Positions 34 through 19,256 of a stretch of 64,000 bases of DNA are shown here, piece after piece. The position numbers and the translations under genes were made by a program. Source of the DNA: Sulfurimonas sp. SAG-AH-194-C21. GTDB taxonomy: Bacteria; Campylobacterota; Campylobacteria; Campylobacterales; Sulfurimonadaceae. The notes below the pieces were generated by a model that was not told the DNA's origin, ran no database searches, and was given only the letters and a program-made list of their open reading frames with translations. The stretch is taken from the NCBI RefSeq assembly GCF_029215985.1, contig NZ_JAEMVC010000003.1, forward strand, positions 1 to 64,000. Reading direction: 5' to 3'. The stretch's first letter is position 1; each line of letters begins with the position of its first letter.

Positions 34-132
34 TTTTTTTCCTTTAAAATTTGACCATAATAATATACATTTTCTTAGTTGTATTTTCCTAAAATTCAAT
101 AAGTTTCGTATAATTAAGGGGGCAAACCTTTG

Positions 133-173
133 TTTATATAAAAATGTTTCATCGCTGAAACTTTTTATATAAA
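133..173 (-). terminator. AT-rich stem-loop at the 3' end of the left operon
   Basis: An 18-19 base inverted repeat with one bulged base and a TCGC loop (152-155) spans the stop codon of the last gene of the minus-strand operon. The arms are A/T rich with a GTTTCA/TGAAAC core. It separates that operon from the next gene at the window edge, so a terminator or 3'-end stabiliser is likely. There is no T-tract outside the stem, so this is inferred from position and pairing only. Confidence 0.45.
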
Positions 174-1901: not shown

Positions 1902-1930
1902 ATAATCTCCTTTATCTGCTATTTAGTTGT

Positions 1931-2701
1931 TTAAGCATACATATACTCACTATTCTGCAAGTGAAATAGGTTGGCTGGATCTAAGATGGGTTCTCCATTT
2001 ACAGCTCGATAAAAGTCAGCTATTCTACTAGCTAACAATTCTAAAATCTCATCTGCTTTTTCTTCTTGGAGGTCTACCTTTACTATGCGTGTGCGTGTAT
2101 CTAGCGTTGATGTAGGTTTCACTATCTCATGGATACTCGCGCCTGCTATACTCATCCCTGCTTTTTTTGCCAAGAGACTATAAACGGAAAGTTGGAGTTC
2201 ATGTTTTAGTTGGAGTGATTTACTGAGCATTCCTGCTGTTTTTATGTCTACAAGGGTATCATCTTGAGTTATTAAGTCTATAGTCCCTCGCACTCCTGCT
2301 ATGTAAGGATTATTATCAAACTTCACTTCTACATACTGTTCTGTATACTTAGGTAAGATTGTAGGCATTATCTCTTTGTGGTAGGCACTAGTTAATCTAC
2401 TTGCAAGATTAGCAAACTCATTCACATCCTCCTCCTCTGTCCACTGTGTAGTAGCACTAAGTTTTAAAAACTCTTCACTTGTAGCTTCTAGTACTAGCTG
2501 TTGGTTTGGAAGTGTCCCTGTCTTTATAAACTCTTCGTAGCCTACATTCAGACCATGGTGTACAGCGGTACCTAAAGTTAGATAACTTTTGGGAGCCGTG
2601 TACTCTTTTAAAATATGGGTTTGATACCACTCATAGGGATTTTTCAAGAATGTTTTTATGCTACTGGGTCGTATCCATATCTTGTCACTTTGTGGTAACA
2701 T
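1931..2701 (-). CDS. PD-(D/E)XK superfamily exonuclease (Cas4/RecB-like)
   Basis: A 256-residue protein with the ordered motifs of a RecB/Cas4-type nuclease: an N-terminal PSSIKTFLKNPYEWY, then GTAVHHGL with a candidate metal-binding histidine, GTIDLI carrying the first acidic residue, VDIKTA giving the D-x-K core, and a downstream QLSVYSLLA helix matching the Q-x3-Y motif. Such enzymes resect DNA ends; next to a candidate annealing protein this suggests a Red/RecET-like recombination pair used by the mobile element. I see no iron-sulfur cysteine cluster, unlike true Cas4, and there is no CRISPR array. The start follows AAGGAG and overlaps the stop of a 24-codon reading frame as TAATG. Confidence 0.82.
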   Translation of the reverse strand: MLPQSDKIWIRPSSIKTFLKNPYEWYQTHILKEYTAPKSYLTLGTAVHHGLNVGYEEFIKTGTLPNQQLVLEATSEEFLKLSATTQWTEEEDVNEFANLASRLTSAYHKEIMPTILPKYTEQYVEVKFDNNPYIAGVRGTIDLITQDDTLVDIKTAGMLSKSLQLKHELQLSVYSLLAKKAGMSIAGASIHEIVKPTSTLDTRTRIVKVDLQEEKADEILELLASRIADFYRAVNGEPILDPANLFHLQNSEYMYA

Positions 2702-2775
2702 TACTTCTCCTTAACAACTGGGCATTTGCATTCATCTATCTTATTCCAGTTAAGATCTATATTAAAATTTATCAC
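2701..2775 (-). CDS. Candidate 24-residue leader/microprotein upstream of the nuclease
   Basis: A GTG-started frame of 24 codons with a very strong GGAGG ribosome binding site. It ends TAATG on the nuclease start, so it could couple translation of the nuclease. It contains a C-x-C pair. It is short enough to be a regulatory leader rather than a functional protein; support is only the binding site and the overlap. Confidence 0.35.
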   Translation of the reverse strand: MINFNIDLNWNKIDECKCPVVKEK

Positions 2776-2791
2776 TATACTTTCCTCCTTT

Positions 2792-2917
2792 TTAGTCATG
2801 GTAGTTACTACTGCAACCACCGATAGAGTTTGTGAACTGGTGTCCTCTTATTCGTTCTAATCTAACTCTTCTAGCAGGTGTCATCCTGTCGAAGTAGGCT
2901 TGTTTGGGGTCATACAT
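2792..2917 (-). CDS. Candidate 41-residue basic microprotein
   Basis: ATG start preceded by AAAGGA. The peptide begins MYDPKQAYFDRMTPARR and is rich in arginine over residues 15-24, suggesting nucleic-acid contact. It lies in the same direction as the exonuclease operon with 18 bases to the next frame. No family recognised. Confidence 0.45.
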   Translation of the reverse strand: MYDPKQAYFDRMTPARRVRLERIRGHQFTNSIGGCSSNYHD

Positions 2918-2935
2918 AATTTTCCTTTGATGTGT

Positions 2936-3067
2936 TCACTCTACAGGTAGATAAGGGTTGTAGGTAGGGGTGTTGGCTGGGCTAGCACTTATTAGGTCTG
3001 GAAAAAAGTTTAATCTTTTGCATACCTCTCTTTCATTTTCATGGTAAGTATTTATCTGTTTGTCCAT
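2936..3067 (-). CDS. Candidate 43-residue microprotein, first gene of recombination operon
   Basis: ATG start with an AAGGAG binding site seven bases upstream. The peptide is hydrophilic in its first half and proline/asparagine rich at the end. Upstream, on the minus strand, an AT-rich stretch with TATATTATT-like sequence (about 3095-3110) could be the operon promoter. No homology recognised; it appears to be the first gene of the run that continues to position 149. Confidence 0.45.
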   Translation of the reverse strand: MDKQINTYHENEREVCKRLNFFPDLISASPANTPTYNPYLPVE

Positions 3068-3219
3068 ACTTCTCCTTTCATTGGTATTTACTCTTATCAA
3101 TAATATATATTTTAAAGGTCATTAGTTTCGGTTTTAAAATTTTTATAAATCCATAAGTGTAAAAAAAAAAGGAGGTACCTAACAAGTAAGTTTGTAGGGG
3201 GATAAAGGGAATTTAACTC

Positions 3220-3235
3220 AGATTTAGCTAAATCT
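3220..3235. promoter_or_regulatory. Perfect 16-bp palindrome over the RHH gene stop
   Basis: AGATTTAGCTAAATCT is fully self-complementary and covers the stop codon of the ribbon-helix-helix gene. It may be a short hairpin ending the par operon or a binding site for the dimeric RHH protein. There is no loop, so a protein site is at least as plausible as a terminator. Confidence 0.35.
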
Positions 3236-3428
3236 TAGGTTTATGTGATAAATATTCTTTTATTAGCTTTCTAATGAGAGTGCTAACTGCTATGTCTACC
3301 TTTGTACACACCAACCGTAAAGCTTCATTATCAGCTTTATCTATGTAGACAGATATTCGTACCTTACTCTTTGAACTGTCAGGGCGACCACCTAAGGAAT
3401 GTTCTAGGTCTTTCATAGAAGGTAGCAT
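3228..3428 (-). CDS. Ribbon-helix-helix DNA-binding protein, partner of ParA
   Basis: A 66-residue protein whose second half is a ribbon-helix-helix fold: the strand KVRISVYID (residues about 22-30), then two helices covering NEALRLVCTKVDIAVSTLIRKLIKEYL. The first 20 residues are a flexible tail that may touch ParA, as in small plasmid partition proteins. Its ATG overlaps the ParA stop (TAATG) behind a strong AAGGAGG site, so the pair is co-translated. Expected to bind a centromere-like or operator site and to autorepress. Confidence 0.8.
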   Translation of the reverse strand: MLPSMKDLEHSLGGRPDSSKSKVRISVYIDKADNEALRLVCTKVDIAVSTLIRKLIKEYLSHKPKI

Positions 3429-4060
3429 TAGATACCTCCTTTTAAGCTTATTATCTGTTCTGTTAAATCGATAATTTCCTCATAAATTTCATTGTGAAGA
3501 TTTTTAGTCCTTTGGAGCATATAGTTACCCTTTTCATGATGAATATTTTGGTACCATTTACTTCCATCCCTGGCTATGTGTTTAAAGAGCGTTGTATTTT
3601 TCATCATATAGATACTACATTCGTCAATATATGAGCTAAGTTGTGCTGCAACTTCTAAGAACTCCTTTTCGTTAGCGACTCTATTTACTATGATAAAGAT
3701 ATTTTCTATCTCAGCCTGTTGCACAAACTGTATAGTTTCTATAGTTGCACTTATACTTCTTGCATCTGTTAAGGTAGGGATGATTACTCCATCAGCTAGT
3801 TTTATAGCATGCATAACTTTAGGGTCTACTAATCCAGTCATAGCACCCATGTCAAAGACTATATCTCTGTCTCCTTTTAAATATCGTGAGGGAATCTTCT
3901 TGAGTTTAGAATCTATCAAGTGAGTGTTAATCGTCTGGAGCCGGCTTAAATCTGTCACTACATCATTAGTAACTAAAGTGTAGTTATTGTTGAGGGCTAT
4001 ATTTGTAGCTATGGAGGTTTTTCCAACCCCACCTTTTATGGAAATGACTGTCAAATACAT
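3428..4060 (-). CDS. ParA-family partition ATPase
   Basis: A 210-residue single-domain ParA/MinD-type ATPase. The deviant Walker A KGGVGKTS lies at residues 9-16, a DIVFDMGA motif takes the place of the usual D-x-P-P/G segment near residue 70, and VIIPTLTDA and IIVNRV strands follow. This size fits plasmid ParA proteins that pair with a small RHH protein, which is encoded immediately downstream. It indicates that the island derives from, or can exist as, an extrachromosomal element. Two inverted repeats upstream are probable operators. Confidence 0.85.
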   Translation of the reverse strand: MYLTVISIKGGVGKTSIATNIALNNNYTLVTNDVVTDLSRLQTINTHLIDSKLKKIPSRYLKGDRDIVFDMGAMTGLVDPKVMHAIKLADGVIIPTLTDARSISATIETIQFVQQAEIENIFIIVNRVANEKEFLEVAAQLSSYIDECSIYMMKNTTLFKHIARDGSKWYQNIHHEKGNYMLQRTKNLHNEIYEEIIDLTEQIISLKGGI

Positions 4061-4083
4061 GTTGTATCCTTTTTTAGTTTATT

Positions 4084-4110
4084 TAAGAAGAAGTTTAAAA
4101 TTTCTTCTTA
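4084..4110. promoter_or_regulatory. 9-bp inverted repeat upstream of parA
   Basis: TAAGAAGAA and TTCTTCTTA are separated by nine bases, 24 bases before the ParA start. In this position it would lie in the 5' leader or at the promoter and could serve as an operator for the RHH protein. Confidence 0.4.
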
Positions 4111-4130
4111 TTTTTATGTTCTAAAAAATG

Positions 4131-4154
4131 GACTACAAAAGTACTTTTGTGGTC
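4131..4154. promoter_or_regulatory. 24-bp near-perfect palindrome, probable par operator
   Basis: The central 16 bases (4135-4150, ACAAAAGTACTTTTGT) are a perfect palindrome; the flanks GAC and GTC extend the symmetry to 24 bases with one mismatched pair. It is about 70 bases upstream of the ParA start, a typical place for the operator or partition site of a ParA/RHH module. Confidence 0.5.
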
Positions 4155-4174
4155 TACAATATGAGTTAGAGTTT

Positions 4175-4665
4175 TTAACTAGCTAGTTTTACTCGTTTAA
4201 TATATTCACCTAAAGATTTAGCTGTACCAAATCCTAAATGCAGCTTAGATATCTTGTTCACAGGGACACCTAACTTTACTAACTCTCTAATTCACTCATA
4301 AGGGAAAACATGGTGAGCATAACTTTGTTTTGCATATCGTTGATGTTATTTTTGTTAAGTATCATATTTTGTTTTATGGCTATGAGTTTTATGCTTTTAG
4401 CTATTAAAACATTGACTATGTCAAAAAGACCTGATAAAGAACGAGCTAGCCGACTTAATTCGCTAACTATCAAGGTGTCTTCTTCTTTTAAAGTGGATAT
4501 AAGTTCATCTATTCTTCTATCTTTGGTAGACTTTTTGCTACTCATACTAATCTGGATGAAGCTGACTTTACCAAGATTATGTTTGTTAGCATAGTCTAGT
4601 ATCTCATGCTTTTGGTTCTCTACAGTCTGTTTTTCTGTACTTACTCTTATGTAACCTAGTGTCAT
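4175..4665 (-). pseudogene. Serine resolvase/invertase, broken by internal deletion and frameshift
   Basis: The N-terminal catalytic domain of a small serine recombinase is intact: YIRVSTEKQ with the nucleophile serine, LSRLARS with the active-site arginines, and a helix ending SLMSELES. The frame then stops. In a different frame the sequence continues with IRELVKLGVPVNKISKLHLG...SLGEYIKRVKLAS, which is the C-terminal helix-turn-helix of the same family. The linker between them (about 30-40 residues in relatives) is missing. The junction GAATTAGAGAG can encode either the end of the catalytic helix or the start of the DNA-binding part, so a slip between two such repeats explains the break. Probably inactive. 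Confidence 0.75.
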
Positions 4666-6694: not shown

Positions 6695-7570
6695 TTGGCA
6701 GTAGCACATGATAAACTAGCTATGAGATTAGGTCTAATCTTAACTAAACTCAACAACGGTGAAAAACTCTTTACAAAAGAGTTAGCTGAAGAGTTTGGTG
6801 TGACAGTTAGAACAGTAGAGCGAGACATATCTGAGAGACTAGCATACCTACCTCTAAAAAAAGAGGGAACAGGTTATACACTAGAAGCTTATTACTTAGG
6901 TAAACTAACTTTTAATGATATACAAAACTTTGCAGCTCTGAGCGGTATCAAAGAGCTGTTCCCTACCTTAGAGGAGAGCTTTTTAAAAAATGTACTTGAT
7001 AGTGTGGTTAACTCAGCCTACCTAATAAAAGGGCATAACTACACAGATACTAGTAAGATGGGTGAAGAGTTTACACTCTATGAGCAAGCTATCAATGACA
7101 GGCTATGCTTAGAGTTTAAGTACAAAGCTAAACAGAGACTAGTTAAACCCTACAAACTTTTAAACAACAAAGGTGTCTGGTATCTAGCAGGAGTAGAGGG
7201 AGAAAAACTCAAAACATTTTTTCTTGAAAACATAGTAAAACCTACCTTGAGTGATGAGACCTACACTTACGATAGTGAAGTGGTAAACAAACTAAAAACT
7301 GAAGATAACATCTGGTTCTCAGATGAACAGTTTGAAGTAGTGTTAAAGGTAGATAAGAGTGTGGCTAGTTACTTCACTCGAAGAAATATCATACCAAACC
7401 AAGTAGTCATTAAAAACTTAGAAGACGGAGGAATCATCGTATCAACAAAAGTAGGACATATGAATCAGATACTTCCTATCGTGAGATATTGGATACCAAA
7501 TGTTAGAGTTGTTTCACCGGAGAGTTTACAGGTGGAGTTGGAAGAAAGTTTAAAAGAATATTTAATATAA
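6695..7570 (+). CDS. WYL-domain transcriptional regulator
   Basis: A 291-residue regulator: winged helix-turn-helix at residues about 8-60 (ELAEEFGVTVRTVERDI), a WYL domain around 130-195 containing the namesake GVWYLAG, and a C-terminal WCX-like region. WYL proteins often repress defence operons and are thought to sense nucleic acid or nucleotide ligands. The start is TTG behind AGAGGA; an ATG lies at codon 10. Nine bases separate it from the first dynamin-like gene, so it heads that operon. The last 132 bases occur again at 12856-12987, marking a second, deleted WYL gene. Confidence 0.9.
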   Translation: MAVAHDKLAMRLGLILTKLNNGEKLFTKELAEEFGVTVRTVERDISERLAYLPLKKEGTGYTLEAYYLGKLTFNDIQNFAALSGIKELFPTLEESFLKNVLDSVVNSAYLIKGHNYTDTSKMGEEFTLYEQAINDRLCLEFKYKAKQRLVKPYKLLNNKGVWYLAGVEGEKLKTFFLENIVKPTLSDETYTYDSEVVNKLKTEDNIWFSDEQFEVVLKVDKSVASYFTRRNIIPNQVVIKNLEDGGIIVSTKVGHMNQILPIVRYWIPNVRVVSPESLQVELEESLKEYLI

Positions 7571-7579
7571 GGAATTTTT

Positions 7580-9544
7580 ATGAGTGTAAATGTAATAGAT
7601 AGGTTGAATGAAAAAAAATTAGCTAAGAAAAGTGAAACAGAAGCTATTTTAGAGGTTATTAAAAGATTTAGTAAAGATAATAGCTTTTGTTTTGATTTAG
7701 ATTGGACTGAAAAAACATTAAATGGACTATTGCAAAAGTTTTCAAGAGATACAATAAATATATCAGTTGTTGCTGAGGTAAGTAGTGGGAAAAGCACATT
7801 TTTAAATGCTTTAGTTTTTGGTAATCAGGTTTTAGAATCAAAAATAGGTGAAACAACAGCAAAAGTATTTCATATAAAATATGGTAAGGATTATAGTGTT
7901 GATGGTAAAACAATGAATACTATAGATGATTTAAAAGAGGCTATTTCTAAACAAAATACAACAAATCTTAAAAGTATAAATGCAGAAGAAGATATCAAAG
8001 AAATTGAGTCAAATATAACTTTGCCTAATGAAAATTTGGAAAAAGGAATAGAACTATATGACACTCCTGGATTTGGAACTGTTAATGAAAAAGTAATGAC
8101 CATACTTTTAAAAGATGCCATTAGTAAGTCAGATGGTGTTATTTTATTACTTGATATATCCCAAGGTTTGAAAAAAAACGAAAAGAATTTTGTTAAGGAT
8201 ATGATAAATAAAATACCATCAAATAAAAGATTTATTATTTTAAATAAATACGATAGTGTTATTGATGAAGATGATTTAGCTTTAAAAACAAAAGAAGAAA
8301 TTGCTTTAGAAATTGAAAGTGTAATTAAAAGTGTAAAAGATAATTTAAGAGACTTGCAAGAAGATAAAAATGAAAATCTTGAAGTATTTTACCTTTCAGC
8401 TAAAAAAGCCTTGATAGGTAAGCTTAAAAACACTCCAAAAGTATTAGAAGAAAGTAGGTTTCCACTTTTTGAAAATAAATTTTGGGATAGAATGGTATCA
8501 GCTAAAGCAGAAGTATTTGATGATGCAATTCTCACTTTAGAACGAACAAAAGATGCCTTGATTAATAGCCTGAATTATGAAAAGATGTCTATTGAAGATT
8601 CTATAAAAGAGACAGAGTCTCTGCTAGATGCGGGTATTGAAGTTGAAAGTAAAATGTCTAGTATTATAAGATTTCAAACAATAATTCAAAATTCAATAGC
8701 AGAAATACGATTGGAAACACAAAAAAGTAGCACTAGCAATAGAAGCACACTAGAGGTAGAAATAAAATCTGCTTTAAAATCAAATATCAAGCCACAGCTT
8801 GATAACATAGGCTTTTGGGATAAGTTACAATTTTGGAAGTTGAAAGAAAAATATGAAGAAGCTGTAAAGAAAGGTTTATCCAATTCTGAAAAAGATTTTG
8901 AGAATATTATACAAAATTTTATGGAAAAAAGCTTTCAACATCTTTCAAGAAAAGAGAAAGCCTCAAATAAAACTATTGTAAGTATTAATGCTTCAATCCA
9001 AGAGATAAATAGTATAAATAATAAAATCAACCTAAAATTAATAGAAGAGATAAAATTTGGTTTTGATATAGATAGCAACGGGGAATTAAAACTGACAGAT
9101 GGTAACTCAGGTTATCATGCAGGAGATTTTTTAAAAGATTTGGGCATAAGTGTAGGTGTTGGAGGTATTGCACTTGTTGGTTTGGAATTTGGGTTGGCAA
9201 GACTTTTACCTTTAATAGCTGGTCCTATAGGTTGGGTCGTTTCAGGAATATTAGCTTTATTTACTCTTAGTAAAGCCTCAGATAAAAATAATGAAATTTT
9301 AGAAAAAATTGTGGAACAATCTTTGCCTATTATTCTAAAAGAACTACAAAGTATACTCTCATCAATCGATTCTTTTGTACTCCAAAATATTAGTGTACTA
9401 TCACAAAATTTAAATCTAATCGATGAGAGAATACGTAATATTAAAGAATCTCTTAATAATAAAAACGAGTTAGAAAGTAACAAAAAAGCTTTATCTCAAA
9501 AAATAAGTGTTTTAAATAAATTTATAACAGATATCGAAAGATGA
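7580..9544 (+). CDS. Dynamin-like GTPase 1
   Basis: A 654-residue bacterial dynamin-family protein. G1 is AEVSSGKS (residues 65-72), the G2 threonine is in GETTAKV (about 90-96), G3 is DTPGFG (161-166), and G4 is NKYD (222-225). A long helical bundle/stalk follows, and a hydrophobic double segment near residues 515-570 (GIALVGLEFGL...PIGWVVSGILALF) could insert in membrane as the paddle does in other dynamins. The C-terminus returns to coiled coil. Multiple dynamin-like genes side by side typically act as hetero-oligomers on membranes. It is coupled to the next GTPase by an ATGA overlap. Antiphage function is inferred from context (WYL, HEPN, toxin-antitoxin). Confidence 0.9.
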   Translation: MSVNVIDRLNEKKLAKKSETEAILEVIKRFSKDNSFCFDLDWTEKTLNGLLQKFSRDTINISVVAEVSSGKSTFLNALVFGNQVLESKIGETTAKVFHIKYGKDYSVDGKTMNTIDDLKEAISKQNTTNLKSINAEEDIKEIESNITLPNENLEKGIELYDTPGFGTVNEKVMTILLKDAISKSDGVILLLDISQGLKKNEKNFVKDMINKIPSNKRFIILNKYDSVIDEDDLALKTKEEIALEIESVIKSVKDNLRDLQEDKNENLEVFYLSAKKALIGKLKNTPKVLEESRFPLFENKFWDRMVSAKAEVFDDAILTLERTKDALINSLNYEKMSIEDSIKETESLLDAGIEVESKMSSIIRFQTIIQNSIAEIRLETQKSSTSNRSTLEVEIKSALKSNIKPQLDNIGFWDKLQFWKLKEKYEEAVKKGLSNSEKDFENIIQNFMEKSFQHLSRKEKASNKTIVSINASIQEINSINNKINLKLIEEIKFGFDIDSNGELKLTDGNSGYHAGDFLKDLGISVGVGGIALVGLEFGLARLLPLIAGPIGWVVSGILALFTLSKASDKNNEILEKIVEQSLPIILKELQSILSSIDSFVLQNISVLSQNLNLIDERIRNIKESLNNKNELESNKKALSQKISVLNKFITDIER

Positions 9545-10989
9545 AAAAAGAAAAACGATTAGAGGCTAGTCTTGATGAGCTAATATTATTATTTGAGCCA
9601 TATGATATTGATATTGCAGAGTTAGAAAATCTTAAACTTTGGATGAACTTACCTCTATATATATCAGTAATAGCAGAAGTAAGTAGAGGTAAGAGTACAT
9701 TTTTAAATGCTTTATTATTCAAAGAATTAATGTTAGAGTGTAGAAATGGAGAAACAACTGCCAATGTCTTTATGATTGGTTATGAGAAACATTTTGATCA
9801 CAAAGCTCAACGAGAATATATTAAGAAAATAAATTGCAACAGTATTGAAGATATAGACAATTTAGAAGATGTTGGAATTGTCATAAATAGTAATAATTCA
9901 AAATATACTAAAGATATTTTTTGTGATACACCGGGTTTTAATACAAGTAATGAAGACCATATGCAGACAATGATAAATGAATTTTTACCTATTTCAAGCT
10001 GTGTTATATTTATAATAGATATATCTAAAGGTATTACCAAGGAAGAGTTAAAACAATTAAAGAATGTGAAGGAACAAGGTGTAGAAGATGTAATTATAGT
10101 TGCAAATAAATTCGATATGGTTAGAGATGAATTCCAAAACGAAAAAGACATAGATTTCCATCTTAAAAAAATAGAACAAGAAATTTCCAAAGTGATTTCA
10201 CTTAACAACCCTATCTTTTATGTGGCTTCTAAAGAAGCCTTAGCTGGTTATATTACTAAAAATAAAGAGAAGATAGCAAACAGCAGGTTTCCAATTTTTG
10301 AAACTTTTTTCGTACATCAATTAAAAAAAATTAGAGAAAAGAAAGTTGAAGACATTTCAAGGGTAGTTATGCTCTATAATGATGAAAATATGAAGAATAA
10401 GTTAGAGATAGATGTTCTGAAAACACATCTGGATTTAGTTAAAAAGCAAGAGTATCTTCCTACTATAGAGTCTTTGGAAAATATTGTTACTACAATGTTG
10501 TCTTTCGCTGAAGAACGAGACTATATTTCTTTTGTTAACTTCTTTGGTGGGCTTGATAGTGATGCTAAAGGGTATGTTACTACTTTAAAAAAATATAATA
10601 ATCAAATATCTGAAGCTTTGGAGAAATGCTTAACATTTTTTTATAGTATCATTCAGTTAGAGATAGAAAGAGATAATCTTCTTAGCAAAGTAGACAATAC
10701 CAATATAATGGATAAACTTTGTTTAAATGAGGTAGAAGAAATCGCTAGTATACAAGGATATATTACGCTTAAGGATAATTTTTTTACAGCAATAAATGAT
10801 GTATCTATTGCGTCTATAGATTTAACCTCACCTCTTATATCATTAGGTACAGAATTGTCTATAATAGATGTTAAAGATATTAGTATTTTTGGGGAGACTG
10901 AAAACTTACAGAAAGAATATAAATTAGTACACAACAAAATTAAAAAATTGAAATCAAGTATAATTGGGGCAAAACATGTATTTAACTAA
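9541..10989 (+). CDS. Dynamin-like GTPase 2
   Basis: A 482-residue GTPase with G1 AEVSRGKS (residues 45-52), GETTANV for G2, DTPGFN for G3 and ANKFD for G4. It lacks the hydrophobic paddle seen in the first protein, and its C-terminal part is helical. It may be the soluble partner in a hetero-oligomeric dynamin complex, as with the dissimilar subunits of LeoA/LeoBC-type loci. Its start overlaps the upstream stop and its end overlaps the next start by 14 bases, so the three proteins are made together. Confidence 0.88.
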   Translation: MKKEKRLEASLDELILLFEPYDIDIAELENLKLWMNLPLYISVIAEVSRGKSTFLNALLFKELMLECRNGETTANVFMIGYEKHFDHKAQREYIKKINCNSIEDIDNLEDVGIVINSNNSKYTKDIFCDTPGFNTSNEDHMQTMINEFLPISSCVIFIIDISKGITKEELKQLKNVKEQGVEDVIIVANKFDMVRDEFQNEKDIDFHLKKIEQEISKVISLNNPIFYVASKEALAGYITKNKEKIANSRFPIFETFFVHQLKKIREKKVEDISRVVMLYNDENMKNKLEIDVLKTHLDLVKKQEYLPTIESLENIVTTMLSFAEERDYISFVNFFGGLDSDAKGYVTTLKKYNNQISEALEKCLTFFYSIIQLEIERDNLLSKVDNTNIMDKLCLNEVEEIASIQGYITLKDNFFTAINDVSIASIDLTSPLISLGTELSIIDVKDISIFGETENLQKEYKLVHNKIKKLKSSIIGAKHVFN

Positions 10990-12556
10990 AGAAATAATAG
11001 AGTTAGAAGAAAGTGTAAAAACATTAGAAAATGAAAACATAGATTTTTTTATAAACTTAGTTAAAAAATTATCTAATAAAAAAAGTGTAGAAGTTGTTTT
11101 TACAGGAACATTATCTAATGGAAAAAGTAGTGTCATAAATGCTATTTTACAAGAGAACATATTACAAGTAGGTATTGGTTCTACCACCGCTAAGATAACT
11201 TATATAACTGAAGGTAATGATAGTTTAACAGGTTTTAATATAGCAGGAGAAAGTTGTGTAAAAGAACTTAACCAAGCTAATATAAAAGAATTGAATGAAG
11301 ATTCAAATATTGAATACATTGAAATAGGAACTAAAAACTTTAATCATAAAAATATCACTTTTGTAGATAGCCCAGGCATAAATGATATAGATGAATTAAG
11401 GGAAAGTGTAAGTTATTCTTATGTACCACTTGCTGATATAGTTGTATTTGTTATTGATATTTCAAAAGGTTTTACAGCAGATGAAAAAAGATTTTTTGAT
11501 GATAAAATTATAAAAAGTCATAAAGAAAAAATATTTATTATCTTAAATGGATTAGATAAGGTAGACGGAGAGGATTTGTCCCCTGTTTTAAATCATGTAT
11601 TACTTGAAGGTTACAAAGTTTTCCCTTTATCTGCAAAAAAATACTTAGTAGGTACTTTAAGTAATGATAATGAAAAAATCGAAAAGAGTAGGTTCCTTGA
11701 ATTTTTGATTGAATTTAATAAGTATATAGACAGCACAGATCCATATACTATATTATCACATCGAATAATAAACTCCTTAAAAAGTCTTGATAAGCTTACT
11801 ACTATACAAATTAATACAATGATTGAAAACATAAATAAATCTAAAGTAGATTTAGAAATAGAATTAAAAGAAAATAAGGTATTACTTGAAGTAGAAGAAT
11901 TAAAAGTTCAAGAGATACAAGATAACCTAAGTTCTGAAATAAGTGCTATAAAAGAGTTTGTTAGTATTAAACTAAACGAACTAGGCTTACAAGTACAAGG
12001 GATGGAAGATACAGATGAAATACTAAAGGGTATTGAAAAGGTTGTTGCAGAAATTATTACATATAGTAAAAATAAATTAGGTACACTTGATATTGACATT
12101 GGTATGTTAAATACTATGCTAAATACTATATTAAAATATTTTAAAACAATTGTTTTTGCTATTTCATATGCAGTTGAAACTTACGTAACAAAGAATCCGT
12201 CTGGAAAAATTTCTAGTGGATTAAAAGTTTTACTAAAAGGACTAAAAAATGCTCCCTTTATTAAAAAAATGCTTTCTAATACTAATAGAATATCATTCGA
12301 TAGAAGAATAAAAGAAATACTCAAAGAAATTGAAGAACACTTTAATCAGGAACTTACTAGAGTAGAGAAAGAAAAAAAGCAAGAGTTAGAATTTGAAATA
12401 TTAGGTGAAATTAAATCAATTATTAGTGCTTATGAGAACTCTATACATCAAAAAGAAGATAAAAAGTCTACCATAGAAAACGAAATAAGTTTTTTTGGAG
12501 ATAATTTAAAAAATATTCAATCTAGGATTATTGCTGTCTCTAAGAATTATGAGTAA
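10976..12556 (+). CDS. Dynamin-like GTPase 3
   Basis: A 526-residue protein with G1 GTLSNGKS (residues 44-51), GSTTAKI for G2, DSPGIND for G3 and LNGLDK in place of the G4 N/T-KxD, an unusual substitution that may weaken guanine selectivity. A moderately hydrophobic stretch (KTIVFAISYAV) lies in the C-terminal half and coiled coils flank it. I choose the ATG at 10976, which has GGGG six bases upstream, over a TTG four codons earlier. The stop overlaps the ATG of a HEPN gene remnant (TAATG), showing the HEPN gene was once translated with this operon. Confidence 0.87.
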   Translation: MYLTKEIIELEESVKTLENENIDFFINLVKKLSNKKSVEVVFTGTLSNGKSSVINAILQENILQVGIGSTTAKITYITEGNDSLTGFNIAGESCVKELNQANIKELNEDSNIEYIEIGTKNFNHKNITFVDSPGINDIDELRESVSYSYVPLADIVVFVIDISKGFTADEKRFFDDKIIKSHKEKIFIILNGLDKVDGEDLSPVLNHVLLEGYKVFPLSAKKYLVGTLSNDNEKIEKSRFLEFLIEFNKYIDSTDPYTILSHRIINSLKSLDKLTTIQINTMIENINKSKVDLEIELKENKVLLEVEELKVQEIQDNLSSEISAIKEFVSIKLNELGLQVQGMEDTDEILKGIEKVVAEIITYSKNKLGTLDIDIGMLNTMLNTILKYFKTIVFAISYAVETYVTKNPSGKISSGLKVLLKGLKNAPFIKKMLSNTNRISFDRRIKEILKEIEEHFNQELTRVEKEKKQELEFEILGEIKSIISAYENSIHQKEDKKSTIENEISFFGDNLKNIQSRIIAVSKNYE

Positions 12557-12690
12557 TGAATAACCTACTAACCTTATCCAATCCCTGCTACTGCAACAGA
12601 AATGGAATAGAGCAACACCTAGAAAACCTAAAAGCGAATGGTGTGTAAAGTTGGTTCTGAACTCAGAGACTATGCTTGCTCACATTAAAA
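12556..12690 (+). pseudogene. 5' remnant of a HEPN-motif gene (first cassette)
   Basis: The sequence beginning ATGAATAACC translates to MNNLLTLSNPCYCNRNGIEQ and onward to HLENLKANGV, matching the first ~29 residues of the intact protein encoded at 16632 (MSNLLTLYNPYYNKNVIEQ onward). A small deletion then shifts frame and stops it, but homology continues at DNA level through the segment encoding ELRDYA. It is more diverged than a fresh duplicate, so it descends from a related but distinct HEPN gene. Homology ends near 12690 where an IS remnant begins. Confidence 0.75.
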
Positions 12691-12848
12691 TATTGGAATA
12701 TATAGAGATGTTCTACAATTCAAAAAGAAGGCATAGTTATTGAGATTATATTTCACCAAATGAGTTTGAAAAAAGATATAATGAAAAGTCTTTAAAAAAA
12801 TAGGTTTTTACTGGATTAGTAATTGTCTAGTTTATAGGGGATATTCCA
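12691..12848 (+). mobile_element. 3' remnant of an IS3-family transposase and its terminal end
   Basis: The frame from 12691 reads ILEYIEMFYNSKRRHSY, a stop, then DYISPNEFEKRY, which is the hallmark C-terminus of IS3-family OrfB transposases (Y-N-x-K-R-R-H-S and SPxEFE). After the natural stop (12801-12803) comes a tail with TGTCTAGTTTAT and GGGGATATTCC, probably the right inverted repeat (about 12824-12848). Everything upstream of the last ~35 codons is gone. It joins a HEPN start to a WYL end, so an IS-mediated deletion is the likely cause of the scar. Confidence 0.75.
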
Positions 12849-12855
12849 AGTTATA

Positions 12856-12987
12856 GTATCAACAAAAGTAGGACATATGAATCAGATACTTCCTATCGTG
12901 AGATACTGGATACCAAATGTTAGAGTTGTTTCACCTGAGAGTTTACAGGTGGAGTTGGAAGAAAGTTTAAAAGAATATTTAGTATAA
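12856..12987 (+). pseudogene. 3' remnant of a second WYL regulator gene (second cassette)
   Basis: These 132 bases align without gaps to 7439-7570, the last 43 codons plus stop of the intact WYL gene. I count three differences: two are synonymous and one is a conservative Ile to Val change. The frame is open to its stop, followed 11 bases later by the next gene, just as the intact WYL gene is followed nine bases later by its first cargo gene. The substitutions suggest that both copies evolved under selection and that this one lost its front part recently. Confidence 0.85.
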
Positions 12988-12998
12988 AGGTATATTAT

Positions 12999-14072
12999 AT
13001 GAAAAGTGAATTTAATGATATAGTTGATAAAAGCATAAATACTTTATTATCAGATAATCTAAAAGAAGATTTAGTTAAAACAATAAAAGATAACACAAAA
13101 TTGGATTTCCAAAAATCTCAACAAATAGTGAATGATATTGTAAATACAATAGAATTGGTTGATAAAAACTATAAAGATTTAAAAAGAGCTAAAGGTAATG
13201 GTAAGACAAGGACTCAATGGCTAGAAGATAAAGTAGACGTAGTTGTTAAAGATTTATCAAATGAAGCTAAAAATAAGTTTGTTCAAGAAATAAAAGATAA
13301 CCTCGATACATCAAATAATGATATGCTCATAAAGGTATTTGATGAAAGTGTTGATATATCAAAAAGATTACCAAATGCTAAGTATGAAGATTTAAATAAA
13401 AAAGTTATCATTGATGATTTTAGTAGACAACTTAAAGACAATACTATTTTAGGTGCTATAATCAATGAAGATGGCAAATTTGAAATTGATACAAAACACA
13501 AAGAGATAAAAGCAGTAAAAGAGTATTTTGAAGCAAAGCTTGATTCTGATTATGACAAGCAATTTAAAACAGCCGTTTCAGTAGCTACAGAAATAGCTAA
13601 AAATAAAGATTTATTACCACCATCTTTAAAAGATAAAACACCAGAAGAGATAAGTATGATTGTCGATAAAGGTGTAACATCTGCTAAAATAGCTTTTAAG
13701 TTAGCAAATGGTGAACTAAATGCTATGGATGCAGTAGAATATACAATAGATAGAAATACAGCTATTTTAAATTCTGCCATAGTTACAGCTACTACAAAAT
13801 ATGGTGGAGTAGCAGGTGGAAAAGTTGGTGGATTTATTGGTAGTATATTTGGACCTGCTGGAACAATAGCAGGAACAGCAATTGGTACAGTTGTTGGAAA
13901 GTTTGCAGGTAATTTTGTTGGTGGACTAATTAACAAAGGTGTTAAAAAAATAGCAAGTGTTGCAAAGTCTGTTGCTAGTAGTGTTGTAAGTGGTGTTAAA
14001 TCTGTAGTTAGCAGTGTAGCAAGTGGGGTTAGTTCATTTTGTAGTGGAGTTGCTTCATTCTTCGGATTTTAA
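12999..14072 (+). CDS. Glycine-zipper membrane-active protein, putative effector
   Basis: A 357-residue protein. Residues 1-255 are hydrophilic and helical. Residues 269-310 form a glycine zipper (GGVAGG, GGFIGSIFGPAG, GTAIGTVVG, AGNFVGG), and residues 316-357 are a low-complexity Ser/Val/Ala amphipathic tail ending in SFFGF. Such C-termini are seen in pore-forming or membrane-inserting toxins. No signal peptide, so it would act on the inner membrane from the cytoplasm. It is the first gene of a four-gene unit ending in an AAA+ ATPase, which could hold it inactive or assemble it. No named family recognised; the effector role is inference. Confidence 0.8.
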   Translation: MKSEFNDIVDKSINTLLSDNLKEDLVKTIKDNTKLDFQKSQQIVNDIVNTIELVDKNYKDLKRAKGNGKTRTQWLEDKVDVVVKDLSNEAKNKFVQEIKDNLDTSNNDMLIKVFDESVDISKRLPNAKYEDLNKKVIIDDFSRQLKDNTILGAIINEDGKFEIDTKHKEIKAVKEYFEAKLDSDYDKQFKTAVSVATEIAKNKDLLPPSLKDKTPEEISMIVDKGVTSAKIAFKLANGELNAMDAVEYTIDRNTAILNSAIVTATTKYGGVAGGKVGGFIGSIFGPAGTIAGTAIGTVVGKFAGNFVGGLINKGVKKIASVAKSVASSVVSGVKSVVSSVASGVSSFCSGVASFFGF

Positions 14073-14088
14073 AAAAGGATAAAAGAGA

Positions 14089-14769
14089 ATGGCTAAAACA
14101 ATAAAATTTAATCTTTTATTGGATGATAATCCAGTAAGAGATATAGAAAGTTTACAAAATAATTTTTGTATAGATGATATACTTGAAGTTTATGCAAATG
14201 GTTTACTTCAAAAATGGCTTAAAGTGCGTGGGCTTGATGAGTATTTAGAAAAAGTAGAAAATATCAAAAAAGATAGTTCGATTATAGTTGAACTTATAAA
14301 AATATTTGACATTAAAAAAGATGATAAAGAGATAAGAGAAAGTATCTATTCTCTTGAATTTCAAGAAAATAGAAAAAAGTCTCTTGAAAACTATAATATT
14401 AAAGATGATGATTTAAAAAATAGAATTAAAGAGTATCATAAAGAGTATGAGGAACTCATAGAAGCTATTATCGAGCATAAAGAAAATATGGCATTTTTAA
14501 AAGTTGCTTCAAAAGAGATAAGTGATAAATATTTAAAACTATTTGAGCTTGATTATAAAGATAGTTATGAATTATATAAAGAAAAATCACCATTTATGAT
14601 ATATGCTATTTTAATGAATGATAAGCTGAGTTTTATGTTTATGAAAAATAATATTATTGTACAAGATTTATATAAAAACTTTATTTTAAACACTCAACCA
14701 AAAGTTGATAATTTCTTTTATGATAATTTTAAAATATTTAAAAAATTAGAGGATAATACAAATGATTAG
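14089..14769 (+). CDS. Hypothetical protein of the AAA+ operon, 226 residues
   Basis: A charged, helical, soluble protein with a central coiled-coil-like region (KNRIKEYHKEYEELIEAIIE) and aromatic residues in its C-terminal third (SYELYKEKSPFMIYAIL, FFYDNFKIF). No recognised motif. It starts 16 bases after the putative effector gene and its end overlaps the next start by eight bases, which suggests stoichiometric production, perhaps as an adaptor or chaperone between effector and ATPase. Confidence 0.75.
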   Translation: MAKTIKFNLLLDDNPVRDIESLQNNFCIDDILEVYANGLLQKWLKVRGLDEYLEKVENIKKDSSIIVELIKIFDIKKDDKEIRESIYSLEFQENRKKSLENYNIKDDDLKNRIKEYHKEYEELIEAIIEHKENMAFLKVASKEISDKYLKLFELDYKDSYELYKEKSPFMIYAILMNDKLSFMFMKNNIIVQDLYKNFILNTQPKVDNFFYDNFKIFKKLEDNTND

Positions 14770-15130
14770 TTCAGTCTTAGGAAGCATAAATACTAGTAAT
14801 GAAATTTATGATTTACTAAATGGAATAGCTGAAGAAAAAATAGAAAATAATGATATTAAAGAAAAACAACAAAAAGCCTTAGTATTAGTTAAAGAAAATA
14901 TTGGACTCATTGAATTTAAAGGTGAAACAGATGCCTATTGGAAAGATTTAGAAACATCAGATGTAAAAGTGATGGTTCTATCAATTCCAGCAAATACATT
15001 TATTAGAAGCGCTAATGATTTAAAGCAAGAATTATCAGCAGAAGATGTAAATGGAAATTTTTTAATTTTAGATGGTTTAGCTTATAAAAGCAATATTAAC
15101 ACCAAATCAATAGTATATATGAAAGTATAA
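14762..15130 (+). CDS. Hypothetical protein of the AAA+ operon, 122 residues
   Basis: A small protein with a helical N-terminal half and a beta-rich C-terminal half (VKVMVLSIPANTFIRSANDL...GNFLILDGLAY). No family recognised. It overlaps the preceding gene and abuts the AAA+ gene without a gap, so it is translationally coupled on both sides. A role as a small partner of the ATPase is inferred from this alone. Confidence 0.72.
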   Translation: MISSVLGSINTSNEIYDLLNGIAEEKIENNDIKEKQQKALVLVKENIGLIEFKGETDAYWKDLETSDVKVMVLSIPANTFIRSANDLKQELSAEDVNGNFLILDGLAYKSNINTKSIVYMKV

Positions 15131-16615
15131 ATGATGAATGTAGTAGATAAATTATCATCTTATATAGAAGCACTTAGACCCATACTATATATACCAACAT
15201 TTGATTTTAATTCATTTGATAATATCATAAAAGACATATCATCAAAGAGTAAAATTTATGAATTTAATGAGGGATTAGGATATGTTAATTTTGAAACAAA
15301 AAACCAAGAAACAGCATACTCTCTTGAAGAATTTTTAAATCTATTTTTATCAGAACAAACTCAACCAGTTTATTTAGTCTTAAAAGATGTACATAATTTG
15401 ATAGACAATCATATAATCATATCTCTTTTAAAATCAATAGCACTAAAAACCATATATGAAGATGATTATTATGTAACTATCTTTATTGTTTCTACTAAAT
15501 TAAATATACCTATTGAATTAGAAAAACTCATAACAATTTATGATACACCACTACCAAATAGAGTAAAAATTATAGATACAATTAACGATTTTTCTCAAAG
15601 TATGAATATATCTATTGATACACATCTTATAAATGAATTGGCATTATCTTTAAAAGGTTTTAGTGAATTTGAAATAATTCAGATTTTAAATCTAGCTTAT
15701 CAAAAAAGTGGAAGTATTGAAACAAAAGATACACAGCTTATACTTGAAGAGAAAGAGCAGATTATCAAAAAATCAGGAATGATAGAGATACTTAATTTTA
15801 AAGAGGGTATTAATGACATTGGTGGACTTGATAATTTAAAAGAGTGGTTAAACAATAAATCTAAAATATTCAATAATCTTGAAAGAGCTTTAGAGTTTGG
15901 AGTAGAAACACCAAGTGGAATGCTAATAGTAGGAATGCCAGGATGTGGAAAAAGTTTAACTGCAAAAGCTACTGCAAGACTTTTTAATGTACCACTGCTT
16001 AGACTTGATATTGGAAAACTTTTAGGTAAATATGTAGGAGAAAGTGAAGAAAATATGCGAAGAGCCATAGGAATGGCAGAAGCCGTTAGTCCTTGTGTTC
16101 TTTGGATTGATGAGATAGAAAAAGCATTTGCAGGAGCTGGAGATAGTGGAGGAAATGAAGTAACAACTAGACTTTTTGGATATTTTCTAACTTGGATGCA
16201 AGAGAAAAAAAGTTCTGTTTTTGTAGTAGCCACATCCAATGATATTTCAAATTTACCACCAGAGTTTTTAAGAAAAGGTAGATTTGATGAGATATTTTTT
16301 GTTGATTTCCCAAATGATGAAGAGAGAAAAAATATCATAGAACTTCATCTTAAAAAAAGAAAAAAATGGAATAAAGATATTGACACTATTAAATTACTAA
16401 AAGAAACTGTTGGATATAGTGGTGCAGATATAGAGGCAGTTATAAAAGATACTATTGAAAAAGCTTTTATAAATGGATGGAAAGAGATACGAACTAAAAA
16501 TATTTTAGATGAGTTGGCAGATACTAAACCGATGTCTGTATCTTTGAAAGATAAAATAGAAACCTTAGGGAAGACTTTAGATAAGCTTAATGTTAAAAAT
16601 GCGAGTAAAACTTGA
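15131..16615 (+). CDS. Ycf46-like AAA+ ATPase
   Basis: A 494-residue protein with a degenerate N-terminal ATPase-like half and a canonical C-terminal AAA+ module: Walker A GMPGCGKS (268-275), pore-loop/Walker B region with CVLWIDEIE (322-330), sensor 1 ATSN (367-370), arginine-finger segment RKGRFDE (381-387). The lead-in GINDIGGLDNLKEWL and the pattern LLRLDIGKLLGKYVGESEENMR match the Ycf46 clade, whose bacterial members have largely unknown roles. No protease domain or zinc site, so it is a remodeller rather than FtsH. It closes the four-gene unit and is 16 bases from the HEPN gene. Confidence 0.88.
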   Translation: MMNVVDKLSSYIEALRPILYIPTFDFNSFDNIIKDISSKSKIYEFNEGLGYVNFETKNQETAYSLEEFLNLFLSEQTQPVYLVLKDVHNLIDNHIIISLLKSIALKTIYEDDYYVTIFIVSTKLNIPIELEKLITIYDTPLPNRVKIIDTINDFSQSMNISIDTHLINELALSLKGFSEFEIIQILNLAYQKSGSIETKDTQLILEEKEQIIKKSGMIEILNFKEGINDIGGLDNLKEWLNNKSKIFNNLERALEFGVETPSGMLIVGMPGCGKSLTAKATARLFNVPLLRLDIGKLLGKYVGESEENMRRAIGMAEAVSPCVLWIDEIEKAFAGAGDSGGNEVTTRLFGYFLTWMQEKKSSVFVVATSNDISNLPPEFLRKGRFDEIFFVDFPNDEERKNIIELHLKKRKKWNKDIDTIKLLKETVGYSGADIEAVIKDTIEKAFINGWKEIRTKNILDELADTKPMSVSLKDKIETLGKTLDKLNVKNASKT

Positions 16616-16631
16616 TAGAAGATAAAACATA

Positions 16632-17729
16632 ATGTCTAACCTACTAACCCTATACAACCCCTATTACAACAAAAATGTAATAGAACAACACCTAGAACTT
16701 CTAAAAGAGAATGGTATTGTAGCTTTTGGTAAGGTTCGCTCTAAACTCAGAGACTATGCTCACCCACATCAAGATATCTTGGATGGTATTTATACTGACA
16801 CCTCTAGAGAGATGCCAACACAGCTATTTTTGACTGATTACAACAGCATCTATGTAGCCAATGTAATATCTATAAATAAAGATATTAAGTTTATCAAAGT
16901 ACCAAAGTATTATGAAGAGTTAGAAGTAGAGTACTGGTTTGTATTTGATGACTTGAGACTCATAGCTCATAAAGATTTTGAACTCATACGAGATAACATT
17001 ATCTCTAATTTCAAGGCTACAAACTTCAACAATAGAACCTATGCTATTTATGGTAATGAATATGTCTATCCTATGCAAGTAACTATGAAAGAAGAGATAA
17101 ACTACTTTGAAAAAGATGATTCCTCATTTAAATTTTACACCAATATATTTAAATCAGAAGAACAGCTAGTGATGAAAAAAAATCTCATAGAGTATAACTT
17201 TGGAAAAAACATATTTTATAATCTAGCACCAAACTCCCAAGACAACATCATAAGTGCAGAGATAGAGTATCTGCAGAACAAGAACAATCCTCTGTATGAC
17301 TTTAGTTCTGTCATAGTGAAGTACTCAAAAGCAGTAGAACTAGAACTCTACCTCTTTATGCGAACTATCTTTGCTGGTTTAATGGAAAAAGAGAAGAGGC
17401 TGAGTAAAGTGGCTTATTCTGTACAGGGCAGAGATTATGTCCTCAAAGATATCTTAACAAAAAAAGTAAACTATGGAACTTATGGATACCTACTTAGAAA
17501 TTATGAGATAAAAGATGCTATCCATAGTAAAGGGTATGAGAGTAACTTAAAATATTTTATACTCACGGAGATACCGCACTTCATCAGAACCATGCAAAAT
17601 GTGCGAAATGAGTCAGTACATGGAGATACAACAACATTAGAGAAATGTGAAGAGATACGCGATGTAGTCATAGGTATAGGAAGAAGCGGGATACTTGTAG
17701 AGTTTGGTAGATATCTAAAGTTTTTGTAA
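16632..17729 (+). CDS. HEPN-motif protein, putative RNase effector (intact copy)
   Basis: A 365-residue soluble protein. The C-terminal region carries RNESVH (R325 to H330), an R-N-x3-H arrangement diagnostic of HEPN ribonucleases, inside a helical region (PHFIRTMQNVRNESVHG). The N-terminal ~120 residues (GIVAFGKVRSKLRDY...QLFLTDYNSIYVANVISI) are beta-rich and may be a PUA/EVE-like nucleic-acid sensor; this is a weak guess. Start of a related gene survives at 12556, showing the family sits at the end of each WYL-headed cassette. It could be an abortive-infection RNase. Its codon and base composition are closer to the WYL gene than to the cargo genes. Confidence 0.75.
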   Translation: MSNLLTLYNPYYNKNVIEQHLELLKENGIVAFGKVRSKLRDYAHPHQDILDGIYTDTSREMPTQLFLTDYNSIYVANVISINKDIKFIKVPKYYEELEVEYWFVFDDLRLIAHKDFELIRDNIISNFKATNFNNRTYAIYGNEYVYPMQVTMKEEINYFEKDDSSFKFYTNIFKSEEQLVMKKNLIEYNFGKNIFYNLAPNSQDNIISAEIEYLQNKNNPLYDFSSVIVKYSKAVELELYLFMRTIFAGLMEKEKRLSKVAYSVQGRDYVLKDILTKKVNYGTYGYLLRNYEIKDAIHSKGYESNLKYFILTEIPHFIRTMQNVRNESVHGDTTTLEKCEEIRDVVIGIGRSGILVEFGRYLKFL

Positions 17730-17809: not shown

Positions 17810-18145
17810 GTGGATGATTTAGCAAACTTATTGGATTTACATGGGGAAGTTTTTCCGATGGATAATGGCTATTGGATTAAATTTGAAGCTTACAAAGTTC
17901 CATTAAGTAAAGAAGTGCCTCATGGTGTTAGATATTCGCTGACACTACATGATAAGAATAACCATAGAGTCATAGGTTATGACAATGCACATAGTTTCAA
18001 GTCATCCAAAAAATATAGTGCTAAAAAAGAGTCCTACGATCATATCCATAAGAAAATGGATATTGTTGCATATGAGTTTGAATCAGCTAGCCAACTACTC
18101 GAAGACTTTTGGAAAACTATTGAATACTACATGGAGAATAACTAA
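17810..18145 (+). CDS. tumE: TumE-family toxin (DUF6516)
   Basis: A 111-residue protein with the TumE/DUF6516 pattern: WIKFEAY near the N-terminus, HGVRYSLTLHDKNNHRVIGYDNAH in the centre, a conserved YDHIHKK, and a C-terminal YEFESASQLLEDFW helix. Members are toxins of TumE/TumA pairs; the precise activity is not shown by the sequence. GTG start (AGGAAC upstream); the nearby ATG is out of frame. The stop overlaps the antitoxin start as TAATG, giving the toxin-first order usual for this pair. Confidence 0.8.
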   Translation: MDDLANLLDLHGEVFPMDNGYWIKFEAYKVPLSKEVPHGVRYSLTLHDKNNHRVIGYDNAHSFKSSKKYSAKKESYDHIHKKMDIVAYEFESASQLLEDFWKTIEYYMENN

Positions 18146-18513
18146 TGAAAATGAAAACAATAAAAGTTGGCATTATGTCAATGGAACAATACAAACAAAG
18201 AACTATGAAGATTGCTAAGGGGCTATACAAGCCTAAAGAGGATGAGCCTAAGGTTTGGTTCGAGTCTGTTAAATCTATGGCTCAGATACTCTCTAATGAG
18301 AACCAAGATTTACTTCAAGTCATCCTTGACAATAACCCACAATCACTTAAAGAGCTAGAAGAACTTACAGGTCGTGCAAAGTCAAATCTTTCTCGTACTT
18401 TAAAGACACTAGAACGATATGGAATAGTTGAACTGCATAAACAGAATAATGCAATCGTTCCTGAAGTAAAAGCTACTCATTTTCAAGTTGAATTTGGACT
18501 TGAAGCTGCATAA
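18145..18513 (+). CDS. tumA: TumA-family antitoxin, winged HTH regulator
   Basis: A 122-residue protein with a helix-turn-helix at residues about 70-100 (SLKELEELTGRAKSNLSRTLKTLERYGIVEL), similar to MarR/ArsR-type DNA-binding domains of TumA antitoxins. The N-terminal part with MSMEQYKQRTMKIA and VWFESVKSMAQIL likely binds the toxin. It overlaps tumE by one base and probably represses from the dyad upstream. Helps retain the island. Confidence 0.8.
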   Translation: MKMKTIKVGIMSMEQYKQRTMKIAKGLYKPKEDEPKVWFESVKSMAQILSNENQDLLQVILDNNPQSLKELEELTGRAKSNLSRTLKTLERYGIVELHKQNNAIVPEVKATHFQVEFGLEAA

Positions 18514-19180: not shown

Positions 19181-19256
19181 TGGTGGCCAATCTCGGAATC
19201 GAACCAAGGACACACTGATTTTCAGTCAGTTGCTCTACCGACTGAGCTAATTGGCC
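19181..19256 (-). tRNA. tRNA-Phe (anticodon GAA)
   Basis: A 76-base tRNA including an encoded CCA. Acceptor GGCCAAT pairs with ATTGGCC, the D-arm reads AGCTCAGTCGGTAGAGC, the anticodon loop is CTGAAAA in stem ACTGA/TCAGT, and the T-arm contains GGTTCGATTCC. The 3' end faces the accessory region, so this gene is the likely integration site of the island. Confidence 0.97.

Follow-up and report, generated by a model that had tools for sequence, protein, structure and literature searches.

A trio of dynamin-like GTPase genes forms the cargo of an island cassette with WYL and HP0729-family borders in Sulfurimonas sp. SAG-AH-194-C21

The window analysed here, a stretch of 64,000 nucleotides (nt) of Sulfurimonas sp. 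SAG-AH-194-C21 (contig NZ_JAEMVC010000003.1, positions 1 to 64,000), contains three consecutive genes encoding dynamin-like GTPases, designated P1, P2 and P3. The trio is the cargo of a swappable island cassette, whose borders are a WYL-domain regulator gene and a gene of the HP0729 family. From the sequence we propose, with a probability of about 0.5, that the three proteins form a WYL-controlled hetero-oligomer with a role in defence, most likely against phages. Sets of three dynamins are already known and recurrent; the trio of the window is a separate, non-orthologous variant.

Results

Three overlapping dynamin-like genes

P1, P2 and P3 are intact open reading frames (ORFs) on the plus strand, and each covers the Pfam Dynamin_N profile almost end to end. 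The reading frames of P1 and P2 overlap by 4 nt, those of P2 and P3 by 26 nt, or by 14 nt if P3 starts from the ATG at 10976. The WYL/WCX regulator gene lies on the same strand and ends 9 nt before P1. The initial annotation had described three overlapping dynamin-like genes with a WYL regulator ahead of them, and both parts of this description hold. Each protein has its own G1, G3 and G4 motifs: AEVSSGKS, DTPG and NKYD in P1, AEVSRGKS, DTPG and NKFD in P2, and GTLSNGKS, DSPG and NGLD in P3. The trio is therefore not a single gene in pieces, like LeoC plus LeoB.

Strong hydrophobic stretches were found in P1 only, where the 19-residue mean hydropathy reaches 2.02 at residue 542 and 1.83 at residue 521. 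The peaks outside the G domain are far weaker in P2 and P3 (1.21 and 1.19), in agreement with the earlier assignment of an obvious membrane paddle to P1 alone.

Structure models of P2 and P3 were built from 22-row alignments. Their quality is modest, with mean predicted local distance difference test (pLDDT) values of 64.8 for P2 and 72.0 for P3. Both models show a dynamin G domain with a helical arm attached, which in P3 is made up of long helices with pLDDT mostly about 65-85. The top structural matches are bacterial dynamins and mitofusins: the first PDB matches of P3 are BDLP and IniA, those of P2 are chains of the Campylobacter jejuni dynamin pair. The model-normalised template modelling scores (TM-scores) are low, about 0.3-0.45. 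Because of the modest pLDDT values and the low TM-scores, the G domain is the only part assigned with confidence.

The G4 motif of P3 (NGLD) lacks the lysine, and this change had been taken as the sign of a specialised third member. We compared G4 in 13 other dynamins: P1, P2, six from Lysinibacillus, two from G210 (another genome of the class), two from Escherichia coli, and the host's own DLP2. The lysine was absent in six of them (NMID, NFKD, NFAD, NAID, NQID, NHKD). BDLP1 has NAWD aligned to the NGLD of P3, whereas the nearest relative of P3 has NKID. In the third dynamin of Lysinibacillus pFN9B, G4 is NFAD and an NGLD sits 50 residues past G3. Judged from these alignments the G4 change of P3 is ordinary and unconserved, and NGLD was rejected as the mark of a specialised subunit.

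The cassette

A 150-nt direct repeat places the 3′ end of a WYL gene on either side of the trio, and the ATG of a truncated HP0729-family gene overlaps the stop codon of P3 (TAATG). The region reads as two cassettes built on one plan: WYL-P1-P2-P3-(HP0729 remnant), followed by (WYL 3′ end)-glycine-zipper protein, 226-residue protein, 122-residue protein, AAA+ ATPase-HP0729. We read it in this way because the WYL 3′ end is duplicated, an HP0729 5′ remnant follows P3, and an intact HP0729-family gene follows the next cargo (Table 1). The second cargo, from the glycine-zipper protein to the AAA+ ATPase, was seen at none of the other HP0729 loci read. Promoter and terminator scans gave results no better than shuffled sequence (36 versus 35.8 and 2 versus 1.5, respectively), and the tandem repeats amount to two short arrays.

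The HEPN ribonuclease motif has the form Rx4-6H. In the intact HP0729-family protein of the window it appears as RNxxxH, and its key positions are conserved among the aligned homologues including the window's own: R325 in 44/44, N326 in 44/44 and H330 in 43/44 (1.0, 1.0 and 0.98). No HEPN profile matched the protein; its Pfam matches were limited to a weak one of Pua-like type (0.0035) and one to a zinc finger (0.055). A search of plasmids with the HP0729-family protein found nothing.

Table 1. Features of the two cassettes and of the island edge (positions in the window)
Feature	Position	Strand	Description	Evidence
WYL gene	6695..7570	+	WYL/WCX-domain transcription regulator, N-terminal helix-turn-helix (HTH), TTG start; cassette head	Pfam WCX 2.6e-11, WYL 1.1e-7; PADLOC WYL 5e-28
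Direct repeat, copy 1	7436..7583	+	WYL gene 3′ end	94.7% identical to 12853-13002
P1	7580..9544	+	Dynamin-like GTPase, 654 aa, putative hydrophobic paddle near residues 521-560	Dynamin_N 4.2e-19, hydropathy; nearest relative L076, 41% identity
P2	9541..10989	+	Dynamin-like GTPase, 482 aa, without paddle, arm apparently shortened; diverged P1 sister	Dynamin_N 1.1e-13; 36% identity to P1 over 251 aa; clade P2+(G210b+(P1+L076)) 99/91
P3	10964..12556	+	Dynamin-like GTPase, 530 aa with TTG start, 526 aa with ATG start at 10976; G4 NGLD, without paddle	Dynamin_N 7.2e-23; clade with G210a 98/96
HP0729 remnant	12556..12693	+	Truncated, frameshifted 5′ end of HP0729-family gene	75% identity over 151 columns to 16630-16777, E 5e-24
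Transposase remnant	12694..12806	+	3′ remnant of insertion sequence (IS)-type transposase (rve_2 integrase core)	PF13333 2.2e-6 on translated fragment
Direct repeat, copy 2	12853..13002	+	3′ end of second WYL gene; heads second cassette	Repeat match to 7436-7583
Second-cassette cargo	12999..16615	+	Glycine-zipper protein (357 aa), 226 aa, 122 aa, AAA+ ATPase (494 aa, best PADLOC name IetA)	
HP0729-family gene	16632..17729	+	Intact HP0729-family protein, 365 aa, HEPN-like RNESVH at 325-330	NCBIfam NF041917 433.6 bits (cut-off 250)
tRNA-Phe	19181..19256	-	Right island edge	ARAGORN

Occurrence of three-dynamin sets

Dynamin_N matches were found in 267 of the 397 genomes of the class. The genome of the window has five with values of 1e-10 or lower, three of them from the trio and two from a separate dynamin pair at an end of contig C22. 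Trios, defined as runs of three genes on a single strand with short gaps, were counted in the 34 other genomes with at least three matches and in the window's own. Sixteen of the 34 carry 17 trios (G019, G021, G064, G068, G081, G101, G185, G227, G367, G026 with two, G141 with the third gene broken, G170, G222, G261, G322 and G393). Nine of these trios come from genus code g19, which, judged by size and gene content, appears to be Helicobacter-type.

Eighty loci of named genomes were fetched with an alignment of P1, P2 and G210b, a query that biases the sample. Three or more dynamin ORFs are present in 12 of them (L091, L094, L095, L099, L116, L130, L131, L142, L149, L150, L152 and L154, the count in L154 including pieces), which belong to Bacteroidota, Bacilli, Clostridia and others. 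Two Lysinibacillus capsici plasmids carry trios, and a published Helicobacter pylori island encodes three dynamin-like proteins, as stated in a passage of PMC8935386. Trios thus recur in Campylobacterales, Bacteroidota, Bacilli and Clostridia, and the suggestion that a set of three is exceptional had to be dropped. Searches of openly licensed PMC full text turned up neither an account of a conserved bacterial system of three dynamins nor one of what HP0729 does, and no name was found for the trios of Campylobacterales and Bacteroidota.

Kinship of P1, P2 and P3

The phylogenetic tree was built from G domains only and contains 94 of 95 rows (Bact150_2, a short match, was left out), among them some very long ones such as P2 (1.59). 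In this tree the trios of Campylobacterales and Bacteroidota consist of three common orthologous subunit classes, encoded in different gene order. Class alpha (support 97/90) is the first gene in both groups. Class beta (99/95) is the third gene in the Campylobacter/Helicobacter type and the second in Bacteroidota; class gamma (98/88) is the second and the third, respectively. Loci with alpha/beta/gamma trios are L067, L070, L063, L060, L069 and L066 in Campylobacterales and L099, L116, L130, L142, L149 and L150 in Bacteroidota. One trio dynamin ORF of L060 (5586-7454, minus strand) extends into an acyl carrier protein domain at residues 547-619, by either fusion or read-through. A further group (L043, L065, L071) adds members to class beta (98/82) and class gamma (99/85). 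Its first subunit may join class alpha; the test permitted this placement for the L043/L065 group (approximately unbiased test, p-AU 0.66). The trios of Bacilli and Clostridia form classes of their own.

P1, P2 and P3 fall outside every trio class. P1 clusters with L076 (100/98), next with G210b (99/84) and then with P2, and P3 clusters with G210a. Uniting the P1/P2 family with class gamma in one clade was rejected (p-AU 0.0158). All six sequences, P1, P2, P3, L076, G210a and G210b, stand together on one side of a weak branch (55/24). L076 is a protein of 606 residues from a Campylobacteraceae metagenome-assembled genome, and has no dynamin neighbour on its 7.2-kilobase contig. In searches of the 397 genomes with P3 and P2, G210 was the one other genome that had relatives nearer than generic dynamins; its P1-like and its P3-like gene lie on separate contigs. 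P1 alone found nothing among genome contigs, no relative was confirmed among viral contigs with P3 or with alignment A1, and P3 matched one unannotated record among phages.

Because its members lie outside the alpha, beta and gamma classes and their relatives are single genes, the trio of the window is, on the evidence of this tree, a separate line, in which P2 is a diverged sister of P1. Three-dynamin sets exist elsewhere, but those found are not orthologous to the set of the window.

Association with the HP0729 family

Matches to the HP0729 family were present in 57 of 367 genomes of the class. We read 45 HP0729 loci, 44 from relatives and that of the window, and left out the loci of 12 genomes. 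Twenty of the 44 relative loci have dynamin genes upstream of HP0729 in the same orientation; ten of these are LeoA/LeoBC-like, four have three or more dynamin genes, three have two and three have one. A WYL gene is upstream in 8/44 by a strict same-strand rule, and also in L066, past a small ORF on the opposite strand. L069 and L066 repeat the plan of the window (WYL, dynamin trio, HP0729); their trios belong to the alpha/beta/gamma type. Both the recurrent alpha/beta/gamma trio and the HP0729 link may be worth more than the trio of the window itself.

LeoA stands directly before the HP0729 gene in five genomes (G021, G064, G068, G101 and, broken, G081). The order LeoBC-LeoA-HP0729 was seen at L187, L188, L189, L193, L194 and L205 (Helicobacter-type), LeoBC often being split or broken. 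WYL genes also adjoin two Bacteroidota trios (L116, 13437-14357; L130, 14350-15243); farther out in L116 lie type I restriction genes.

Island setting

The GC content per kilobase is 0.24-0.29 over positions 8000-16000, versus 0.31-0.39 across most of the remaining window. At the position of the tRNA-Phe edge three relatives carry a transfer-messenger RNA (tmRNA) gene and two tRNA-Phe genes. When the tmRNA stretch of a relative was compared with the genome assembly of the window, there was no tmRNA match; the other island edge is therefore probably missing from the assembly. Resolvase, ParA-type, PD-(D/E)XK and TumE-type toxin genes surround the island, and the setting of the trio is accessory and mobile.

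Two flanking segments were also noted. Positions 1-4665 contain DUF2958, PD-(D/E)XK nuclease, ParA-type and resolvase genes, which point to the backbone of a plasmid-like or integrative element. At 17810-18513 a TumE-type toxin gene is followed by the gene of an HTH protein, a likely toxin-antitoxin pair.

Discussion

The distinct G domains, the putative paddle confined to P1, the short arm of P2 and the WYL gene upstream are consistent with a hetero-oligomer of specialised subunits. There is a precedent in the neighbouring C. jejuni dynamins DLP1 and DLP2, which according to a passage of PMC6104087 form hetero-oligomers that bind and tether membrane. This idea of the initial annotation is kept as a candidate, without the NGLD motif as a mark of specialisation. 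A role in defence is suggested by published excerpts, which report delayed phage lysis through a bacterial dynamin (PMC8844932), repression of a defence island by a WYL protein, and WYL regulators at phage-defence islands (PMC9122601). The accessory, mobile setting with low GC content, the separateness from the host's own dynamin pair, the duplicated cassette borders and the recurrence of HP0729 genes downstream of dynamins also speak for this reading.

In the mechanism that we propose, the WYL protein would keep expression of the operon low, and the three GTPases would form a hetero-oligomer at the cytoplasmic side of the cell membrane. Upon infection the paddle of P1 would insert into or bind the membrane. 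P3 would contribute a second full-length arm and extend the assembly, whereas P2, with its short arm, would pair through its G domain and cap or activate the complex, tuning assembly or GTP hydrolysis. The damaged membrane would be held or remodelled, or the infection aborted. The HP0729-family protein might add a second step, possibly RNA cutting.

Several observations weigh against a hetero-oligomer with a defence role. The helical arm of the P2 model mostly has pLDDT of about 60 or less. No close relative of the complete P1-P2-P3 set was found, only relatives of single genes, and the HP0729 copy that belongs to the trio cassette is broken. PADLOC gave only weak LeoA/LeoBC matches for the trio. 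Upstream of HP0729 no recognisable dynamin was seen in 24 of the 44 relative loci, and since these have other cargo, the link between HP0729 and dynamins is not exclusive. The ten Leo-type cases all belong to genus code g19 and apparently represent a single locus, thus they are not independent.

The same proteins could form a general accessory machine of membrane repair or vesicle formation, with no phage-specific role. Excerpts of the literature tie LeoABC to vesicle release (PMC4159319) and C. jejuni DLP1/2 to membrane tethering (PMC6104087), which would suit such a machine; the host genome, however, already has a chromosomal dynamin pair, and the trio is island-borne, with a WYL gene ahead of it and an HP0729-family gene adjoining. 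We consider this explanation somewhat unlikely. It is unlikely that P1, P2 and P3 are independent, partly redundant paralogues that arose by local duplication and do not make one complex: their frames overlap, the putative paddle and the arm length are clearly differentiated, and paired dynamins of C. jejuni are reported, in the passage cited, to hetero-oligomerise (PMC6104087). Such an origin would nevertheless agree with the sister relationship of P1 and P2 (99/91), with the six P-type rows sharing one side of the weak branch, and with the G210 relatives being single genes on two contigs. A decaying leftover of island turnover, devoid of present function, would account for the truncated HP0729 copy after P3 with the IS remnant alongside, and six of the nine g19 trios do have at least one gene in pieces. 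We find this very unlikely for the trio of the window, in which all three frames are uninterrupted and no G motif is missing; the intact HP0729 gene farther downstream might act for both cassettes.

Eleos is an anti-phage system, and the trio could be imagined as an Eleos (LeoA/LeoBC) system with an extra subunit. The best PADLOC names are LeoBC for P1 (1.4e-18) and LeoA for P3 (4.9e-11), and true Eleos in Helicobacter-type genomes likewise has an HP0729 gene after it. When the LeoA and LeoBC profiles were run on 26 genomes, however, full-length LeoA proteins scored 417-507 bits and the better LeoBC matches 331-445 bits, all in genomes other than that of the window. P1 reached 64.6 bits with LeoBC, about a sixth of true members. 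P3 was unlisted at 1e-6 and had 40 bits with LeoA by hmmscan, a tenth or less of true members, while matches in other GTPase-like frames reach 47-51 bits. True Eleos members thus score five to twelve times above P1 and P3, and the G1 surroundings of Helicobacter-type LeoA and LeoBC differ (GGFSEGKT, GETGAGKS). Because P1 and P3 score so far under true LeoBC and LeoA, the trio is not Eleos; membership of Eleos/LeoABC is rejected on these profile scores, and Eleos with an added subunit is scarcely tenable. The trio may work like Eleos without being a member of it.

The trio bears on why bacterial dynamins come in sets. It is not orthologous to the recurrent trios, yet its WYL/HP0729 frame is of the same kind as theirs, which would mean that sets of three have arisen more than once. 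The link of the HEPN-like HP0729 family to dynamins of three lineages raises the question of whether a dynamin set controls an RNase. One could imagine a membrane-watching dynamin hetero-oligomer that releases or activates the HEPN-like RNase upon phage damage, with the trio of the window, the alpha/beta/gamma trio and LeoA/LeoBC swapping into a common WYL-cargo-HP0729 frame. We regard this wider scheme as decidedly unlikely.

Comparison with known systems

Eleos/LeoABC of E. coli H10407 resembles the trio in having adjacent dynamin-like genes on an island and, in Helicobacter-type genomes, an HP0729 gene after them. It differs in that its LeoC and LeoB are the halves of one dynamin, as a passage of PMC4159319 states, whereas P1, P2 and P3 have whole G domains. 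C. jejuni DLP1/DLP2 (Cj0411/Cj0412) are likewise dynamins encoded side by side, and the first structural matches of the P2 model are their chains. They are two subunits, however, and the published operon, as described in the relevant passage of PMC6104087, includes an HcpA-like gene, with no mention of a WYL gene there. The genome of the window has a pair of this kind of its own, on C22.

BrxR-type WYL regulators also stand at the head of an operon (excerpt of PMC9122601); the likeness noted is one of gene position. The trios of Bacilli and Clostridia (Lysinibacillus pFN9A, Bacillus FJAT-42315, Clostridiaceae L152) share the three consecutive dynamin genes, but their proteins are longer (758-805 residues in FN9A and FJAT-42315; the third protein of L152 has 448) and their clades are separate. 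The trios of Campylobacterales and Bacteroidota have three consecutive dynamin genes as well, some with WYL and HP0729 neighbours; their three orthologous classes exclude P1, P2 and P3 in the G-domain tree.

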